IMG/VR virus record: IMGVR_UViG_3300020383_000007
Span: 31,340 to 95,339 of that record
DNA: 64,000 nt
Reading direction: 5' to 3' (one strand)
Source: a virus
The notes beneath the pieces were generated by a model. That model saw nothing but the letters and a program-made list of their open reading frames with translations, was not told the DNA's origin and searched no databases. This document shows, in pieces, positions 1,117-58,083 of this stretch. Both the position numbers and the translations under genes were made by a program. Numbering within the stretch: position 1 is the stretch's first letter; the number at the start of each line of letters is the position of its first letter.

Positions 1117-4100
1117 TCAACGATTCATATTTACGGCAGGTTTAACATCACCGTTACCGGTTGTGTTTTGCCGCTGTTTAGGTTTGTTGTCTTTTTTGTC
1201 TTTCGACTGAGACTCATCCTTCTTAGCAGCACCTGTACTATCTCTTAAGTAACTACTTATCTGAGACAGTTGATCCACCATAGTTTTCTGAACGCCAACG
1301 CTTTGATTCAGGATTGATACCATACGATTGGTGTTCTCTGTTAACTTGGTGTTATGTACTTGGTTCTGAGCAGCAGCAGCTGCTACTGAACGTTCTTGAC
1401 GTCTAGCGTCTCGATCAAGTACCTGTCTCGCTACAGCAGCTCGCTCATCCCGCTCATCGTCTACCGCAGTCGGTTTAGCATATTGACTACCATATACGCC
1501 GCGCTCTAACTCATTAGCTTTACGCAACATCATCTGTTTAGCACGCGGATTAGTTTGTCTCTCAGCAGCCGCACGTAATCTATCGGCAGCGCCGCGAGGG
1601 TCTAATCCACCATCAGATTCTTGGTCTCCCTCAACCCTTTGGGTGTCCCCTTGAGTATCGTTAGGTTCGTTTGGTTTAGAACCAGGAGATTCGAAATCTG
1701 CAAACAATGCTGCATCGGTTTGATAACCGTCAGCCTTCTGACCACCCAAGCGACCGAGCTCTTCTGTTTCATCCTTACCGAAGTCTGGACGACTCTTCTG
1801 AACATCAGCCTGACTTGATTGATCTTTACGCGTTAAGAGTTCATTTAAAAACTCCCTTACTTGCGCTGAGTTATCACTTAGCTTGTAGTCTGGCCATGGT
1901 GGCGCAAAGACTGTCCATACAGACATCTGCGAACCATTAACCGCACTACGCATATTTGAAGCAACTTCATAAGGTCCTTGACCTTTAAGTGACATAGGAC
2001 TATAAAACGAGCCTTTCATAGCACTCATCTTACTCATGTATGTTGCTAACACGGGTATGAATCGTTTAGTGAACCATTCGGTCCATATCGTCCGATCTTT
2101 GTCAGACTCAGGATCACGACCAAACATGGAAGCGTATTCGTTGAATAGCTTCACACGAGACCCCTTAAACGTAGCCTTACCATTTGATATTTGCATCATT
2201 GGTTTGACGACACGTTCAAGTTCTAGTAAGTGTTGAACCTTTTCAGTTTCATCTGTCGATTGTAGGCCGTATGTAACTATACGAGTTTTACCAACAGCAT
2301 CATTCACTAGACTCGCGTCTGGTAATTCAGCTACTTGACCCTCTTGGAGTTGTAACTCAATTGGACCCTCACCGTTTGCGGCAATTGCCATACCGGCTAA
2401 AGTTGTACCTTTAGAACCTTGACGTTTCTCCAACCGATTTGCAGCGTCTAACATCTTACGCTTTATTCGCGGATTATCCTGACGACTAGCGGATGCTCGC
2501 AACCGTTCGGCTGGCGTCATTGCCATGAGTTCTTCTTTGGTATGCTCAGTCTTCTCAGTCTGAGCTTCGGCTGTAGACGTATCCGTTGACTCACCCTCGC
2601 CTTCATCTTCAAGTTGTGACTCTAATAACTCCATCACTTCATTGTAGACTCTATCGACTTGTGAGAAGCCAACGACACCACTATCTTCCTTGTATGGTGA
2701 GGTCATTTTACGATAGGGTGAATCTGGTCCATCTTCGAACTTCGACCGTTTCATCACCTCGATCTTTTCTTTAACCTCTAGCTGATCCTCCATATCCTCA
2801 ACATCGAAATCTTCCATGTAAGGTTGGCCTGCTGCAATCCACGATAGATAGACTGGCTTAAAGCGATCATTCAACCACTGGTAGAACCGCTCTATCTGCT
2901 CTTCATCCTCTTCAGGATCAAGGTCGATTTCATCCAACAGATCTTCAGGATCAACACCTTCAAGTTTAGGTGGTTGGTCTTTTGGCATGACGACGTAGTC
3001 TTGGAAAAAGTTTTCCAGCTTGTACATCATACCAACATGCTCATCGTTCTCTAGGTCTGCACCGTATTGAGTATAACGAGCACGGTTGACATCGTCTAGA
3101 TCGGCCTGATCTGCCCACTTATACAAGAAGTAAGCTCCAGCACCGATCGCAACAGCTGCACCGACTGCAAGTGCTACAGGAGCACCTAAGATGGATACTG
3201 CTGCTGTACCCAATGCCCATAGACCACGTATGGCCCAAGAGGTACCTGAGCGAATGACATTATTCCAAAGGAAACTACCAGCGGTTTTCAAACCCCCACC
3301 GATAGCATTTAGACCCAATGCCCCACCGACTCTACTACCGACGTTCTTGACACCTTGCCAAAGTTTACCAAGTTTAGTCTTAGGCTTATTGTTCTTGTTA
3401 TTGCGGTTCTTATCGCGATCCTTATCATTATCGCCATCACCACCGACATCGACGTAGCTATAATCGTTACCATCATCGCCACCGTCTCCGCCGCCAAGAC
3501 CAAATAACCCACCAAGCTTACTTAGGATGCTATTTCCTTTATCGGCAAACTCACCTTTATCCTTACCATCTTTACCCTCGGCATCATCTTTCGATTTATC
3601 ACCGTAAAGTTTAGAACGCCAACCGCCATCGCGTAGTCCGTCATCATCTTGATCGAAGAACTTATCAGGCGGATTAACGCGCTCGTTAATCAGGTCACGG
3701 ATTTCAGTAAGTAATTGAGTTTGCTGTTCTGAATCAGACAGTAGTTTCTCAGCGTTTTCACCTTTCAGTTTACCGCCGAACATTCCACCGAATAATCCAC
3801 CTACAGCACCACCGATACCTTTAACAACGCTCTTACTAGCCTTGAAGACACCTTTGGTTAACCCAACTGTCATATCTAGACCCTTACGGGTTAGGTTCAT
3901 CGCATGTTGAACAAGACCATTACTTTTGCCAGTTGATAGATCCAACGGTTTCCCTCTGGAGTCAACTAAACCTTTCTTAATGTCTTCATGCGACAACACG
4001 ACATTGCCATCGAGATCTAACACCTCACCATCGATATCTTGGATGGTTCTAATGGGCTCCTCAGTTTCAGCCGATAGATAACCACCGGTTTTCATGATCA

Positions 4101-8534: not shown

Positions 8535-10172
8535 ATGAGTATAGAGCGCTTACCCTTTAACATTAGTTTGTTAAAGTTAACTCCAGGACAGATACGTTTA
8601 TTAAAACCGATCACGAGTTTAGATACCGTAGATGCCCCCGGTTCAAGTGACTTTCATTCTGAAGGTCTTTTTTCAACTGAAATATTTGGGCGTGTAGGTG
8701 AAGACGCACGTGATGAGACCTTCGCTTATATACCACTTAAGACTAAGATACTTCATCCAATTGTTTATCAACGGCTTGAGCGTTTGAAGCGTCTATATGC
8801 TGGGATATTATCAGGCAAAACCTATGCGGTTTGGGATGATAAAGAAAAAGACTTTGTGCAAAGTACTGAGGTGGAAGGAAAAACTGGTTTCCACTTCTTC
8901 ATGTCTAAGTGGAAAGATATTGTCTTTAAGAAAGGCGATAGTGAGATACGTAACCAACGAATCGACTTGATCAATAAGTATCGAGAGGAAGCGGTCATCA
9001 GCGACGTACTTGTTATGCCTGCTGGGTTACGGGATGCTGAGATAGATGCTATCGGTCGAACTCAAGAAGATGAGATCAACACACACTACCGTCGATTGAT
9101 TGGTATTGTAAACACCATTGGTGATGGTAATAAGAATGATGGACCCATCCTTGATAATGCTCGGTACTCACTACAGATGACGTTTAATGAAATCTACTTT
9201 ACCATTGAGAAAATGTTAAGTGGTAAGAAAGGTTTCATTCAGAACAAATATGGTTCACGTCGAATCATGAATGGTACTCGTAACGTTATATCGGCGATGG
9301 AGTTGTCACCACCTGACTTAGATGAGTCTAACTTCCCTGAAGCAGACGATACAGTAGTGGGTCTATTCCAGTGTTCAAGAGGCGCACTCCCAATCACCAT
9401 CAATCGTTTGATGAACAATATTCTGCAACCGGCTTTTGGTGATGAGGAAGGTCAGGTAAAACTTATCGATCGAAAAACACTTCGTTCTGAGTTCGTTAAT
9501 GTGTCTGCACAAACGTTTGACCGTTGGACTACTACTGAGGGTTTAGAAGCAGTTATCTCATCTCAAGAAATGACTGAGGCCCGTGCTAAACCTGTGGTTG
9601 TGGAAGATCGCTATTTAGCTTTGGTGTATAAACCTAAAGATCGTAAAGTGTTTAAGGTATTCTACGACATCGATGAGCTACCTGATGACTTTGATAAAGA
9701 TGACGTATATCCAATCACATTACATGAAATGATTTATTTGTGTAACTATAGTGGTTGGAATGATTTACGCATCCAATCAACTCGTTATCCGGTGACCGGT
9801 GAAGAGAGTTCTTATCTATCGCGTGTCTTTGTACGAACCACAGTTAAGAGTGAAGAACGTGTCGAGTTGAACTCTAACTGGGAAGATCAAGAACCCAGTA
9901 AAGAGAATACAGCTTACGTTTATCCCGTATTCGAACCTGAGTCTTATATCGATTCTCAAATGGTTCATAGCTATCGCTTGGGTGGACTCGGTGGTGACTT
10001 CGACGGTGATACGGTATCGGGTAACATCATTTATACAAAAGAAGCAAAAGAAGAAGTTGATAAGTATCTCAACTCAAGAGAAGCCCACGTAGATCCATCA
10101 GGGGGACTGCGTGCGTCTGCCTCGATTGATACGATTCAGCTTGTTATGCACAATATGACTGGAGACGCGTGA
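8535..10172 (+). CDS. Virion-type RNA polymerase, beta-prime subunit N-terminal part
   Basis: 545 residues, start with GAGGACGCT just upstream. The catalytic signature DFDGD is at 488-492 inside GGDFDGDTV, matching the NADFDGD motif that holds the active-site magnesium in all multisubunit RNA polymerases. The start LLKLTPGQIRLLKPI and the segment NKYGSRRIMNGTRNVISA fit the beta-prime N-terminal clamp and double-psi barrel region. The chain stops about 50 residues after the metal site, so the funnel, trigger loop and C-terminal clamp must come from another gene outside this window, as in phiKZ, whose beta-prime is split. It is divergent from the tape-measure-like gene across 56 bases and overlaps the beta gene by one base (TGATG), so the two are translationally coupled. 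Position beside virion genes suggests the packaged polymerase rather than the non-virion one; that is inference. Confidence 0.92.
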   Translation: MSIERLPFNISLLKLTPGQIRLLKPITSLDTVDAPGSSDFHSEGLFSTEIFGRVGEDARDETFAYIPLKTKILHPIVYQRLERLKRLYAGILSGKTYAVWDDKEKDFVQSTEVEGKTGFHFFMSKWKDIVFKKGDSEIRNQRIDLINKYREEAVISDVLVMPAGLRDAEIDAIGRTQEDEINTHYRRLIGIVNTIGDGNKNDGPILDNARYSLQMTFNEIYFTIEKMLSGKKGFIQNKYGSRRIMNGTRNVISAMELSPPDLDESNFPEADDTVVGLFQCSRGALPITINRLMNNILQPAFGDEEGQVKLIDRKTLRSEFVNVSAQTFDRWTTTEGLEAVISSQEMTEARAKPVVVEDRYLALVYKPKDRKVFKVFYDIDELPDDFDKDDVYPITLHEMIYLCNYSGWNDLRIQSTRYPVTGEESSYLSRVFVRTTVKSEERVELNSNWEDQEPSKENTAYVYPVFEPESYIDSQMVHSYRLGGLGGDFDGDTVSGNIIYTKEAKEEVDKYLNSREAHVDPSGGLRASASIDTIQLVMHNMTGDA

Positions 10173-50065: not shown

Positions 50066-50103
50066 GGTAAGCCTCTTATGTGAGTAAAAGCTGCTATACG
50101 ATA

Positions 50104-50506
50104 CGGCGCGGCGACCGTTGCCGCCACTGCCTTTCTAATTGGTATCTTTTATCTCTTTTAGGGTTCTATGAAATTTAAGATTAAATGTAAAATGATTTAT
50201 ATCTAAATACCATTTGTCATTATGATTAACTTTTTACTGATGACTTTTTATAATTTGAACTTAAAGGATGGAATGAGTGAACGGTAGTGAACGAATGACA
50301 ACACTTTCCCTTTGGGGGGAAAGGGGGGTTGAGAGAAGAGAGGATTTAAAGGAGAGAAGAGAGAAGGGGGAAAACCCCCCTTATGGTTTTAGCTATAACA
50401 GTCAAGCGATAGGAGGTACCTCAAGTACCGACCTCTAAGCGTAGCATGCACTGTACATATCAAAATTTTTCTAATTTTTTTGATTTCGCATTTCCCCGCC
50501 GCGCCG
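50104..50506. repeat. GC-rich 10-base inverted repeat bracketing a purine-rich noncoding region
   Basis: CGGCGCGGCG (50104-50113) and CGCCGCGCCG (50497-50506) are perfect inverted copies 383 bases apart in an otherwise AT-rich stretch. Between them: AT-rich DNA (50155-50260), two AGTGAACG copies 10 bases apart (50276, 50286), a CTTTCCC/GGGAAAG hairpin (304-323), AAGGGGGGTT (321-330) matched by AACCCCCCTT (373-382), two GAGAGAAGAGAG copies (331-342, 352-363), and a GGTAC/GTACC stem (415-429). There is no credible gene in 50066-50579. Regulatory region, origin or structured RNA are all possible. Confidence 0.7.
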
Positions 50507-50525
50507 ATCCTACCTAAGGTCAAGC

Positions 50526-50534
50526 ATATATCAT
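50526..50534 (+). promoter_or_regulatory. Candidate promoter motif ATATATCAT
   Basis: Third copy of the 9-mer, 46 bases before the first gene of the small-gene operon. Confidence 0.5.
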
Positions 50535-50579
50535 CTCGTTGAGTACTCGAAACGTATAAACAAATAAGGATAACGTATC

Positions 50580-52999: not shown

Positions 53000-53692
53000 A
53001 TGGAATTTTCAGAAGATTATCAAAAGATGCTCGATCTACATGAACAAGCACATAAAGAAGGCGCAGTACGAAATCTAAACGGTGAAGATATCGAGACGGA
53101 AGGTCGTAAGATTTTTGAGGGTAGTGAATTGTTACCTATGTTACCGACCATAAAGGAAATAAAAGACGATCTTAATCTAACCAGTCTTTTGGATTACGGT
53201 TGCGGTAAAGCCAATGCATATTACCTAGCGTTTGAACTCGATGGTGTGATACATCCCAATGCATATCAGTATTTGGGTATCGCGCCAGCGGCAGTACATT
53301 TATACGATCCTTGCGTGGAACAGTTCCGCAGTAAACCACGTCAAGAGCAAACGTATGATATCGTTGTTTGTACCGATGTGTTGGAGCATATACCAGAGCA
53401 GGATGTAGATACTGTCATTGAAGAGATGGTTTATCATGCTAATAAGTTAATGGTATTCAAAATTGCAGCCCACGAATCCTTTACCAAATTTAAAGACGGT
53501 ACAAACGTACATGCTACCGTCAAGCCTCCGAGTTGGTGGTTTGATAAAATTATTCGTATCGCCACTGAATCGGGTCGAACCATATTACTTCATATCGAAG
53601 TAGAGGAACGCGAAAGTGGTTCCGATGGTAAACGTAGTCACATCAGTCGTCATATCGTAAACCAGGGGAATAAAAATGGCAATACTGGCTAG
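53000..53692 (+). CDS. SAM-dependent methyltransferase (class I fold)
   Basis: 230 residues. Motif I is LLDYGCGKA (63-71), the glycine-rich SAM loop; motif II-like acidic residue in HLYDPCVEQF; motif IV region YDIVVCTDVLEHIPEQD (about 119-135), as in the Methyltransf_11/23 families. The C-terminal strands (KLMVFKIAAHESF, PPSWWFDKI) complete the fold. No target-recognition domain, so the substrate (nucleotide, small molecule, RNA or protein) is unknown; a DNA methylase would usually show an (N/D)PPY motif, which is absent. Overlaps the next gene by 17 bases. Confidence 0.88.
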   Translation: MEFSEDYQKMLDLHEQAHKEGAVRNLNGEDIETEGRKIFEGSELLPMLPTIKEIKDDLNLTSLLDYGCGKANAYYLAFELDGVIHPNAYQYLGIAPAAVHLYDPCVEQFRSKPRQEQTYDIVVCTDVLEHIPEQDVDTVIEEMVYHANKLMVFKIAAHESFTKFKDGTNVHATVKPPSWWFDKIIRIATESGRTILLHIEVEERESGSDGKRSHISRHIVNQGNKNGNTG

Positions 53693-54032
53693 ATTAGAAG
53701 TGGGGGTCTATCTGGATAGTGAGACGTGTCGATATTTAAAGCGTAAGATGAAAGAGACCAGTTGGTTTTGTAATACGTTAATGATCGACCCAGACCATGT
53801 TACAGTGCACCCAGAATACATCGAGATAGACGATGTAGGTTTACTTAGAACAGAACGACTCGTCCCAAAGGTTAAACCGATCTACGTAAGTATCATACGT
53901 AGTTGGATGACGGGTAACTGGTTAGTCTATATCGACTATGATGCAAATATCTCTGACGAACATCAGCGCAGTCGAAACAATTCAGTTAGGCAAGTGGTTA
54001 AGGTAAAACCGCGCATACCTGTTACAATTTAA
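53676..54032 (+). CDS. Small protein coupled to the methyltransferase
   Basis: 118 residues, CAGGGGAATAAAA before ATG, starting within the end of the methyltransferase gene. It begins AILARLEVGVYLDSETCRYL, with alternating strands and a short helix, and ends basic (RQVVKVKPRIPVTI). No recognised motif. The tight overlap suggests the two products work together. A structured noncoding segment follows at once. Confidence 0.75.
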   Translation: MAILARLEVGVYLDSETCRYLKRKMKETSWFCNTLMIDPDHVTVHPEYIEIDDVGLLRTERLVPKVKPIYVSIIRSWMTGNWLVYIDYDANISDEHQRSRNNSVRQVVKVKPRIPVTI

Positions 54033-54068
54033 CAGGTTGTCCTATTATATAGACCTATAACCAGTTTC

Positions 54069-54300
54069 CGCCAATATCACTGTGCTTCTTTACACCATTC
54101 GTGCCACAGTGATACGGCGTGGGAAGGGTCGCGAGATGGTGGGCCATTCGCGACCTTGTTGTCAGGGTGGGGAGTGTATTATTCTTCGTGATAGGGCAGA
54201 CGCCAATTCTGCATCCGGTCCCGCAATATCCAAAGCGGTGTTATCTCAGCGGCGTCCACTCCCCACCCTTGGCAGCTAAACCCACTGTACTGAATTTGGG
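54069..54300 (+). ncRNA. Candidate structured RNA with three strong stems
   Basis: Stem 1: TATCACTGTG (54075-54084) with CACAGTGATA (54105-54114), extended by CGCC/GGCG (69-72, 116-119). Stem 2: GGTCGCGA (127-134) with TCGCGACC (148-155), a bulged G, then ATGG/CCAT closing a TGGG loop. Stem 3: GGGTGGGGAGTG (165-176) with CACTCCCCACCC (257-268), continued inside by GACGCC/GGCGTC (199-204, 251-256). Inner stems such as CCGC/GCGG (221-238) are possible. No tRNA, RNase P or tmRNA signature. GC content is well above that of the flanks. No credible gene. Strand is set by the boxA and terminator that follow. Confidence 0.7.
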
Positions 54301-54333
54301 CCGTGCGCCTAAATAACTGCAAGAGTGATTTAT

Positions 54334-54351
54334 TGCTCTTTAACAATTTGG
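54334..54351 (+). promoter_or_regulatory. boxA antitermination element
   Basis: TGCTCTTTAACAATTTGG matches the boxA of gammaproteobacterial rRNA operons (core TGCTCTTTAACA), the RNA site bound by NusB-S10. It lies just after the structured segment. An AAGAG/CTCTT hairpin (321-325, 336-340) overlaps it and could mask it. Confidence 0.85.
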
Positions 54352-54363
54352 TAATAATAATGA

Positions 54364-54379
54364 CTCGATATAGATCGAG
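54364..54379 (+). promoter_or_regulatory. boxB-like hairpin
   Basis: CTCGAT (364-369), ATAG loop, ATCGAG (374-379), 12 bases after the boxA match. The order boxA then a small hairpin recalls lambdoid nut sites. No N-like arginine-rich protein is seen nearby. Confidence 0.5.
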
Positions 54380-54438
54380 ATAATAATATCCTTTTACTAA
54401 AGTGATATAGAAGTTTATCTTCTAATCGGCGATACACA

Positions 54439-54466
54439 GGGACCTTCGGGTCCCTTTATTTTTTGT
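54439..54466 (+). terminator. UUCG-loop terminator ending the noncoding unit
   Basis: GGGACC (439-444), TTCG, GGTCCC (449-454), then TTTATTTTTTG. Confidence 0.93.
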
Positions 54467-54506
54467 TCTTAGGATATAATAAAAAAATACAAAGTGGAGT
54501 AGTAGT

Positions 54507-54854
54507 ATGACTTATAAAGTCGCGGACCGTCCAAATACAAGTATCCAAGCTGAAGGACACAATCCAAAGTCTGGTGCTTGTAACGATTACATCATTACTG
54601 AACGTGACAACGATCGTAATGTGTTAACTGAGATTGCGTTTCAGAATGGACCCATTACTGAGAACGTTAACGGTTGTCAGTTAGAAGATCTGTTGGTTGT
54701 TTGTCGACATCGACTACACTCATTCCAAAATGGTAAGTTTCCTTGTGAGGAGAATGCGGTTGCCATTGATCATCTGACTAAAGCCATCGAAGCTTTGGAC
54801 TCGCGTACCGCAGATCGAATCAAACGAGGAGTACAGGATGAGCAGACGAAGTAA
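54507..54854 (+). CDS. Acb2/Tad1-like protein (predicted anti-CBASS/anti-Thoeris sponge)
   Basis: 115 residues, GTGGAGTAGTAGT before ATG. The C-terminal two thirds follow a pattern I know from phage proteins annotated as Acb2/Tad1 domain: IAFQNGPITENVNG (about 48-61), then LLVVCRHRLHSFQNGKFPCE, ENAVAIDHLTKAIEAL and RTADRIKRGV. The usual end is RGVEGT; here it is RGVQDEQTK. Acb2 binds cyclic dinucleotides and trinucleotides of CBASS, and Tad1 binds cyclic ADP-ribose isomers of Thoeris. The helical hairpin with conserved FQxGxFxCxENA would fit. Role is a family inference from memory, not from a search. Directly after the structured RNA and before two small genes that overlap each other. Confidence 0.75.
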   Translation: MTYKVADRPNTSIQAEGHNPKSGACNDYIITERDNDRNVLTEIAFQNGPITENVNGCQLEDLLVVCRHRLHSFQNGKFPCEENAVAIDHLTKAIEALDSRTADRIKRGVQDEQTK

Positions 54855-56526: not shown

Positions 56527-57486
56527 ATGACAAATAAAGTACGCTTATATGGTTGCGGTGGTGCTGGTGTAAACATCGTATCCAATTATGCGACACGTGG
56601 GAAAGAGCCGGGTTGCGCTGAACTCATTCCATCACTTATCGACACATCTGCCAGTAACTTGCGCAGTCGCGAAGTACCAGAAGAAAGCGTCTACCAAGTG
56701 GAAGGGTTAGATGGATCTGGTAAGATCCGTAGTGAAAACCACGCTGAGATCAACAAGGTTATCAAAGAAGTCTTGGTTAAAATGCCACCAACTGACTTCA
56801 ACATCGTTGTGTTCTCAACCTCTGGTGGTAGTGGTTCTGTCATCGGTCCTCTTCTGATGAAAGAATTGATGTCTCGTGGTATCGCCACAATTGCAGTAGT
56901 TGTTGGTTCCGATGAATCGGTTATCGCTGCGGAAAACACACTTAAGACATTGCAGTCTCTGGAGCTTATCTCTAAGAAGACTGAAACGCCATTGGTTATG
57001 TCATATCACCACAACGACCAAAATACTCGCCGTAGCCAAATCGATAAAGAAATGTTGGCGGAAATCGGATCACTTGCAATCCTTGCCTCTGGTGAAAACC
57101 TAGAGATGGATCGTTTGGATCTGGTGCATTGGTTGAACTACACTAAAGTAAATGGTGGTACACCACGTTTGAGCACGCTTGATATCGCGATGTCTGGCGA
57201 AGCGTATAGCTCTTTGTCTGGTGTATTGTCAGTTGCATCACTTTACAACGATGCCGATCAAGAGCGTATCGTGACTTCAGCTGACTATCATAGCGATGGT
57301 CTAGCGGATCTTTCATCTATCGATCTGAAAGAAGTTCACTTTGCCATCGGCGTTGAAGGTGTTGGTAAAATTGGTGAAGACATCAAGAAGCGCGTAGCGC
57401 AAATGAAAGAAACACGTGAAGCACGCGTTGAGCGTAACTCACTGTTAGACGGTGTTAACTCTGACGACGATGATCTCGTCCTTTAA
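56527..57486 (+). CDS. phuZ: Phage tubulin (PhuZ-like)
   Basis: 319 residues, AATAGGAGCTC before ATG. GTPase features of the tubulin/FtsZ/TubZ superfamily: N-terminal YGCGGAGVNIV (8-18), IDTSASNLRS after strand 2, and the tubulin signature loop FSTSGGSGSVIG (96-107). The C-terminus is an acidic tail (NSDDDDLVL, 311-319) as in PhuZ, where it holds neighbouring subunits in the three-stranded filament. Size matches PhuZ of phiKZ and 201phi2-1 (about 315). In those phages filaments centre the replication nucleus and carry capsids to it, so the phage probably makes a nucleus; the shell protein ChmA is not in this window. Own terminator, so a single-gene unit. Confidence 0.9.
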   Translation: MTNKVRLYGCGGAGVNIVSNYATRGKEPGCAELIPSLIDTSASNLRSREVPEESVYQVEGLDGSGKIRSENHAEINKVIKEVLVKMPPTDFNIVVFSTSGGSGSVIGPLLMKELMSRGIATIAVVVGSDESVIAAENTLKTLQSLELISKKTETPLVMSYHHNDQNTRRSQIDKEMLAEIGSLAILASGENLEMDRLDLVHWLNYTKVNGGTPRLSTLDIAMSGEAYSSLSGVLSVASLYNDADQERIVTSADYHSDGLADLSSIDLKEVHFAIGVEGVGKIGEDIKKRVAQMKETREARVERNSLLDGVNSDDDDLVL

Positions 57487-57771: not shown

Positions 57772-57893
57772 TAATACTGAGTTGATTTCCCTTAATGATA
57801 TGAAGTAGTGTTTCCGTTGTTGTACAGCCAGCGATAATGGGCCTTTAGGTAGGTTTTTCGTTACTTCTCCTTCTTTTCGTGAAAAAGTGATAG

Positions 57894-57913
57894 CGGGGAC
57901 CTTCGGGTCCCCG
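57894..57913 (+). terminator. UUCG-loop terminator in the 57772-58083 gap
   Basis: CGGGGACC (894-901), TTCG, GGTCCCCG (906-913), followed by TCTATTACCGTTTTAC, a weak T-tract. The rest of the 312-base gap is AT-rich with no gene visible. Confidence 0.75.
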
Positions 57914-58038
57914 TCTATTACCGTTTTACTTTTTATCTGGCTCTGAATGACTCTGTGAGAATAAAATAAATTAATCAGTACAGTACTGGCGATTAATATG
58001 TGAAAAGCCCTTAGAAAGGATTCTAGAGCGTTTTAGAA

Positions 58039-58047
58039 ATATATCAT
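58039..58047 (+). promoter_or_regulatory. Candidate promoter motif ATATATCAT
   Basis: Fourth copy of the 9-mer, 37 bases before the first gene of the small-paralogue cluster. Confidence 0.5.
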
Positions 58048-58083
58048 GAGGGTGGTATGTAGTATAAACAATAAGGAACCCGC

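Follow-up and report, generated by a model that had tools for sequence, protein, structure and literature searches.

A ribosomal RNA-type boxA lies inside a gene-free, strongly folded and terminator-closed segment in the genome of a phiKZ-like jumbo phage, an arrangement that sets two lineages of PhuZ-encoding phages apart from the leader-type boxA sites of other phages. The stretch of DNA analysed here (the window) comprises 64 kb of the 95,339-base IMG/VR contig IMGVR_UViG_3300020383_000007, and the segment is located on its + strand between the end of an open reading frame at 54032 and the start of a gene at 54507. We tentatively propose that it gives rise to a terminator-ended phage ncRNA that may offer its boxA to host NusB-S10 and have a role at the RNA level. 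While boxA, phage boxA leaders and the UTR-derived ncRNAs of phiKZ (PMC8545117) are already known, the literature searched contained no case of a boxA within a strongly folded jumbo-phage RNA that is closed by a terminator.

Results

Gene neighbourhood of the segment

The contig was assigned to a phiKZ-like jumbo phage by its PhuZ tubulin (56527-57486; phrog_4733; best named match 39.9%, Xanthomonas phage LucasX), a DUF7484 protein and a phage RNA polymerase beta-like subunit (8535-10172). Genes on the same strand flank the segment both upstream and downstream. The last upstream open reading frame (53676-54032, +) encodes 118 aa of no known family, and no terminator was found between its end at 54032 and the RNA segment, so that the RNA may be the 3' UTR of the upstream operon. 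A weak promoter-like site (GTTACA-16-TATTAT, 9/12; 54021-54048, +) is a candidate RNA start that may be due to chance, and the number of such sites was not above that in shuffled sequences.

The gene 3' of the segment (54507-54854, +; phrog_2428) had been described from sequence alone as anti-defence-like, and this was borne out by its match to Thoeris anti-defence 1 (Tad1) in the PDB (8kbb, E 3e-11) as well as to SPG24 Tad1 (47.7%). Its product also matches PDB entry 8y6v, 'gp184' (E 2.4e-9), and the Tad1 fold may thus be common to another phage protein. The nearest PhuZ relatives (L085 and L086, 54-56%) differ in gene content in the Tad1/RNA zone; since they carry different genes and no Tad1 was seen in the corresponding zone, the region that holds the RNA is an accessory one. 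The Tad1 relatives (L002 and L003) belong to unrelated phages, from which the RNA is absent.

Further gene-free stretches were noted in these genomes. On the far side of the accessory region, positions 50066-50579 of the window harbor G-rich tracts (around 50312-50385) and a GGGGGAAAACCCCCC hairpin. Positions 57780-58080, 3' of a small open reading frame downstream of PhuZ, carry a terminator-like hairpin (GGGGACC-UUCG-GGTCCCC) of the type found at 54438. L085 (3957-4300) and L086 (4040-4400) share a gene-free block, TTACAGGACGGATTTATTATTTGC.AGAAAGAGGAGCG..AGCGACCA.CCTTTCGAGC followed by GGGGTAGCGATAGT, which has the look of another conserved structured RNA; when L085 was scanned, no Rfam family was returned.

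The segment is non-coding and strongly folded

No coding signal was detected at 54033-54480. Three open reading frames of 55-65 aa inside the segment had codon scores of -0.20 to -0.28 bits/codon, compared with +0.12 to +0.24 for three neighbouring genes, and a protein-coding reading was ruled out by these negative scores; a 7-codon frame 3' of the boxA (54359-54382) was judged to be a chance occurrence. Neither a tRNA nor a tmRNA was found in the segment, and the Rfam scan that the first-pass annotation had recommended returned nothing above the gathering score. The best sub-threshold match, Atu_C8, was rejected; it covers only the 3' end including the terminator. The first-pass annotation had seen no credible gene between 54033 and 54506, in agreement with the codon scores, and had taken the stretch for a structured non-coding unit, in agreement with folding, codon scores and the empty Rfam scan.

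Compared with shuffled sequences, folding z-scores of -5.6 (448 nt), -5.9 (54070-54290) and -4.8 (54061-54299, 500 shuffles) were obtained, although some coding stretches equal the folding of the segment for their GC content. In the predicted fold, a compact RNA domain (54061-54299, +; z -4.8 to -5.9), closed by an outer pairing of 54061-54068 with 54292-54299, holds all three strong stems that had been proposed earlier. Stem 1 (54075-54114, +) pairs TATCACTGTG (54075-54084) with CACAGTGATA (54105-54114) over 10 bp, or up to 14 with flanking pairs, at pair probabilities of 0.67-1.0. Stems 2 and 3 are enclosed by a GUGGG/CCCAC helix (54119-54285, +; pair probability 0.89-0.98), which results in a three-way junction. 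Stem 2 (AGGGTCGCGA...TCGCGACCTT; 54125-54157, +) is formed by 54125-54134 and 54148-54157 and continued by 54137-54139 and 54144-54146. Stem 3 (54158-54276, +) has a core of GGGTGGGGAGTG (54165-54176) and CACTCCCCACCC (54257-54268), which amounts to 13 perfect pairs if A54164-T54269 is counted, and continues outwards through 54158-54164 and 54270-54276 to a total of 19 pairs with one bulge.

Apart from the core of stem 3, the window contains no perfect inverted repeat of at least 12 within 150 nt. This core had been called far beyond chance, which is true locally, as repeats of at least 12 occurred in 0.08% of the segment shuffles and repeats of at least 13 in 0/5000, but not for the window as a whole, in which 0.5 and 0.1 such repeats, respectively, are expected by chance. 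Two short sequences in the domain were also noted: GGUCCC (54217-54222) could pair with the GGGACC of the terminator, over 6 bp only, and GGCAGCTAA (54271-54279) resembles what we take to be the end of a CRISPR type I-F repeat, but is too short to count.

DNA searches of phages and plasmids with the segment returned nothing but fragments of the terminator or boxA and short matches attributable to chance, and an exact pattern scan for the folded domain revealed no relative. The covariance model R1 (54119-54285) matched only itself when run over 50 PhuZ-phage records and 68 loci; this empty answer is weak, because R1 was built from a single sequence. A PhuZ profile search yielded 80 loci, and methyltransferase queries and single-sequence PhuZ queries yielded no relatives. 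These searches thus gave no relative of the folded domain in which the stems could show compensatory changes.

A single boxA of the rRNA spacer type

An exact rRNA-type boxA, TGCTCTTTAACA, is present at 54334-54345 (+) and is the sole exact copy in the window. The stretch GCTCTTTAACA (54335-54345) fits the core of the boxA consensus, GYTCTTTAANA (PMC5725501). The match extends to the 22-mer TTGCTCTTTAACAATTTGGTAA (54333-54354), which was found in one bacterial genome contig among those searched, the gammaproteobacterial L168, where it is located in the 16S-23S spacer between tRNA-Ala and 23S rRNA. The boxA that had been noticed in the first reading is thus confirmed by an exact copy and by 22 nt of identity to a 23S-proximal spacer boxA; its identity as an rRNA spacer-type boxA is secure, and it is a candidate NusB-S10 site. 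A predicted hairpin formed by AAGAGUGA and UUGCUCUU (54321-54340, +) would cover the 5' part of the boxA (54333-54340).

The longer boxA form TTGCTCTTTAACAATYTGG is present in 66 IMG/VR contigs, and sequences related to it occur in hundreds of phage records, including T7-like early leaders. This extended form is found widely among the leaders of phages and plasmids (L019-L084, L012, L015-L018), where it is often located directly 3' of a terminator-like hairpin, and is little described in the literature searched. Among 50 PhuZ-phage records, three exact matches to the boxA 12-mer were obtained, one of them intragenic, with about one expected by chance, and no enrichment was demonstrated in these records. 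Besides that of the window, only one lineage in this set (L107/L114) has an intergenic boxA. The perfect extended boxA of L172 was discarded, as it lies inside an open reading frame.

About 18 nt downstream of the boxA, a small hairpin follows (CTCGAT-ATAG-ATCGAG; 54364-54379, +). The first-pass annotation had termed it boxB-like; a hairpin is indeed present, but its 6 bp stem carries an AUAG tetraloop, and neither this loop nor the distance from the boxA is boxB-like.

Terminator-closed boxA segments occur in two PhuZ lineages

The segment ends in an intrinsic terminator (54438-54465, +), in which the stem AGGGACC-UUCG-GGUCCCU (54438-54455) is followed by the T-rich tail UUAUUUUUUG; the UUCG terminator proposed earlier, with AGGGACC/GGTCCCT as stem, is therefore present. 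boxA sites in the fetched loci were scored for an intrinsic terminator within 300 nt downstream, with a perfect stem and a T-rich tail as the strict rule. None of the approximately 50 other scored phage and plasmid boxA sites was followed by one, whereas the distance from boxA to terminator is 103 nt in the window and 133 nt in L107/L114.

In L107 (IMGVR 3300031933_000083; 2959-3168) and L114 (3300036546_000144; 9169-9379), a boxA RNA with terminator follows the PhuZ operon, and the gene-free stretch 3' of this operon in L114 (9165-9385) has a fold z of -6.2. Homology between the two extends to the end of the terminator and resumes past an extra gene of 239 aa, which lies directly 3' of the terminator in L114 (9426-10145) and is absent from L107. 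Since the downstream gene is present only in L114 and the boxA RNA is kept in both, the boxA RNA of this lineage is not bound to one gene as its leader. The near-identical L107 and L114 represent one independent case, so the terminated-boxA pattern rests on two lineages.

Discussion

phiKZ-like phages are not known to depend on the host RNA polymerase, and a host rRNA boxA in a terminated, folded RNA was therefore unexpected. In the explanation that we tentatively put forward, an RNA of about 400 nt would be transcribed as a unit, either as the 3' UTR of an operon or from its own promoter, with the multi-stem domain (54061-54299) followed by the single rRNA-spacer-type boxA, the hairpin and the intrinsic terminator. 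The boxA would be bound by the host NusB-S10 (NusE) pair, as rRNA boxA is, and the folded domain would protect the RNA. Acting in trans, the RNA might engage or titrate host Nus factors, and rRNA synthesis or maturation would be weakened during infection. Because the predicted transcript ends about 100 nt past the boxA and the boxA is not joined to a gene, a role at the RNA level seems most likely. There are precedents for parts of this scheme: lambda nutL RNA transcribed at a high level titrates Nus factors, with a drop in rRNA expression (PMC4807359), and phiKZ produces UTR-derived ncRNAs with terminator-like stems (PMC8545117).

Several findings argue against this explanation. The folded domain had no homologues in the DNA searches or with R1, and the predicted hairpin that hides part of the boxA would hinder NusB-S10 binding. 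With one boxA per RNA, titration by a decoy would be weak except at very high abundance of the RNA. Moreover, only one other PhuZ lineage with an intergenic boxA was seen in 50 records, in which the count of the bare 12-mer is near chance. We regard as unlikely the broader idea that nucleus-forming jumbo phages with their own RNA polymerases make dedicated, terminated boxA decoy RNAs which capture NusB-S10 and divert Nus factors from rRNA operons, and that such RNAs have arisen at least twice on unrelated scaffolds. If NusB-S10 is bound, the segment would encode a phage RNA aimed at ribosome synthesis; the boxA RNA suggests that the virus uses or soaks up host factors that read boxA, a signal normally used for making ribosomes. 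The presence or absence of a nearby terminator at phage boxA sites offers a simple rule for finding more such RNAs.

Alternatively, the segment could be a cis-acting leader or attenuator of the Tad1-like operon, for which host polymerase would start upstream, the boxA would recruit NusB-S10-SuhB, and the modified polymerase would resist Rho or partly read through the terminator into the Tad1-like gene. The boxA lies 173 nt 5' of the Tad1-like start, near the leader positions seen in many other phages, and rRNA boxA blocks Rho termination in reporters (PMC4807359). Nevertheless, we consider this somewhat doubtful: an intrinsic terminator separates the boxA from the gene, rRNA-type boxA is documented to act against Rho-dependent and not intrinsic termination, and no other scored leader-type phage boxA has such a terminator. 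Furthermore, an RNA polymerase beta-like subunit (8535-10172) is among the phage's own gene products, and L107 and L114 keep the boxA RNA but differ in the gene that follows it.

It is unlikely, to a slightly greater degree, that the segment is an ordinary structured 3' UTR and terminator of the upstream operon, in which the stems protect the mRNA end and the boxA is a relic or gives local Rho protection to the untranslated tail. The missing terminator after 54032 and the same-strand flanking genes would fit, as would the processed 3'-UTR RNA of phiKZ, the second stem of which may be a terminator (PMC8545117). Yet it is difficult to see how, without selection, a relic would still match an rRNA spacer boxA over 22 nt, and the folded domain is far larger than an end-protecting stem needs to be. 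We consider it very unlikely that the boxA is incidental to some other, unrecognised type of RNA (a ribozyme, an anti-defence RNA or a packaging RNA), as the boxA identity is too long for chance and no homologue defines such a class, even though the compact 240-nt fold belongs to no family and adjoins an anti-defence gene where gene content varies. The nut-like unit of the first-pass annotation, a lambda-type boxA plus boxB serving a phage N-like antitermination protein, is hardly credible despite the hairpin 3' of the boxA, since its 4-nt AUAG loop is not a lambda-type GNRA-like pentaloop, the spacing is about 18 nt, the 19-base boxA agrees with rRNA and with rRNA-like leaders of phages, and the families found for the scanned proteins of the 95-kb contig included none that is N-like (N proteins being short and divergent).

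Comparison with known systems

With lambda nut sites, the segment shares the order of boxA and hairpin, but here the boxB pentaloop is missing, no N was found and the RNA is terminated. The rRNA-type boxA leaders of T7-like Przondovirus, Drexlerviridae Vc1, Markadamsvirinae KEY and other IMG/VR phages have the same or nearly the same extended TTGCTCTTTAACAATYTGG; in contrast to the segment, they are open, and no intrinsic terminator follows within 300 nt. The spacer copy of the gammaproteobacterial rRNA operon boxA, a NusB-S10 site, is identical over 22 nt in L168 and fits the same GYTCTTTAANA core, whereas the boxA of the window is not upstream of rRNA, has an unrelated folded domain on its 5' side, is closed by a terminator about 100 nt further on and lies partly under a predicted hairpin. 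The phiKZ ncRNAs (from the PHIKZ298 3' UTR and the p40 5' UTR) likewise come from a nucleus-forming phage and are structured, gene-free RNAs whose last stem resembles a terminator, but they have two stem-loops and lengths of about 100 and 180 nt, and the likeness is one of description (PMC8545117). In L107/L114, the 240-nt folded domain is absent 5' of the boxA, the boxA is predicted to be open and there is no sequence similarity outside it; nevertheless, both RNAs belong to PhuZ phages and combine a gene-free, strongly folded stretch with a boxA, a hairpin and an intrinsic terminator.
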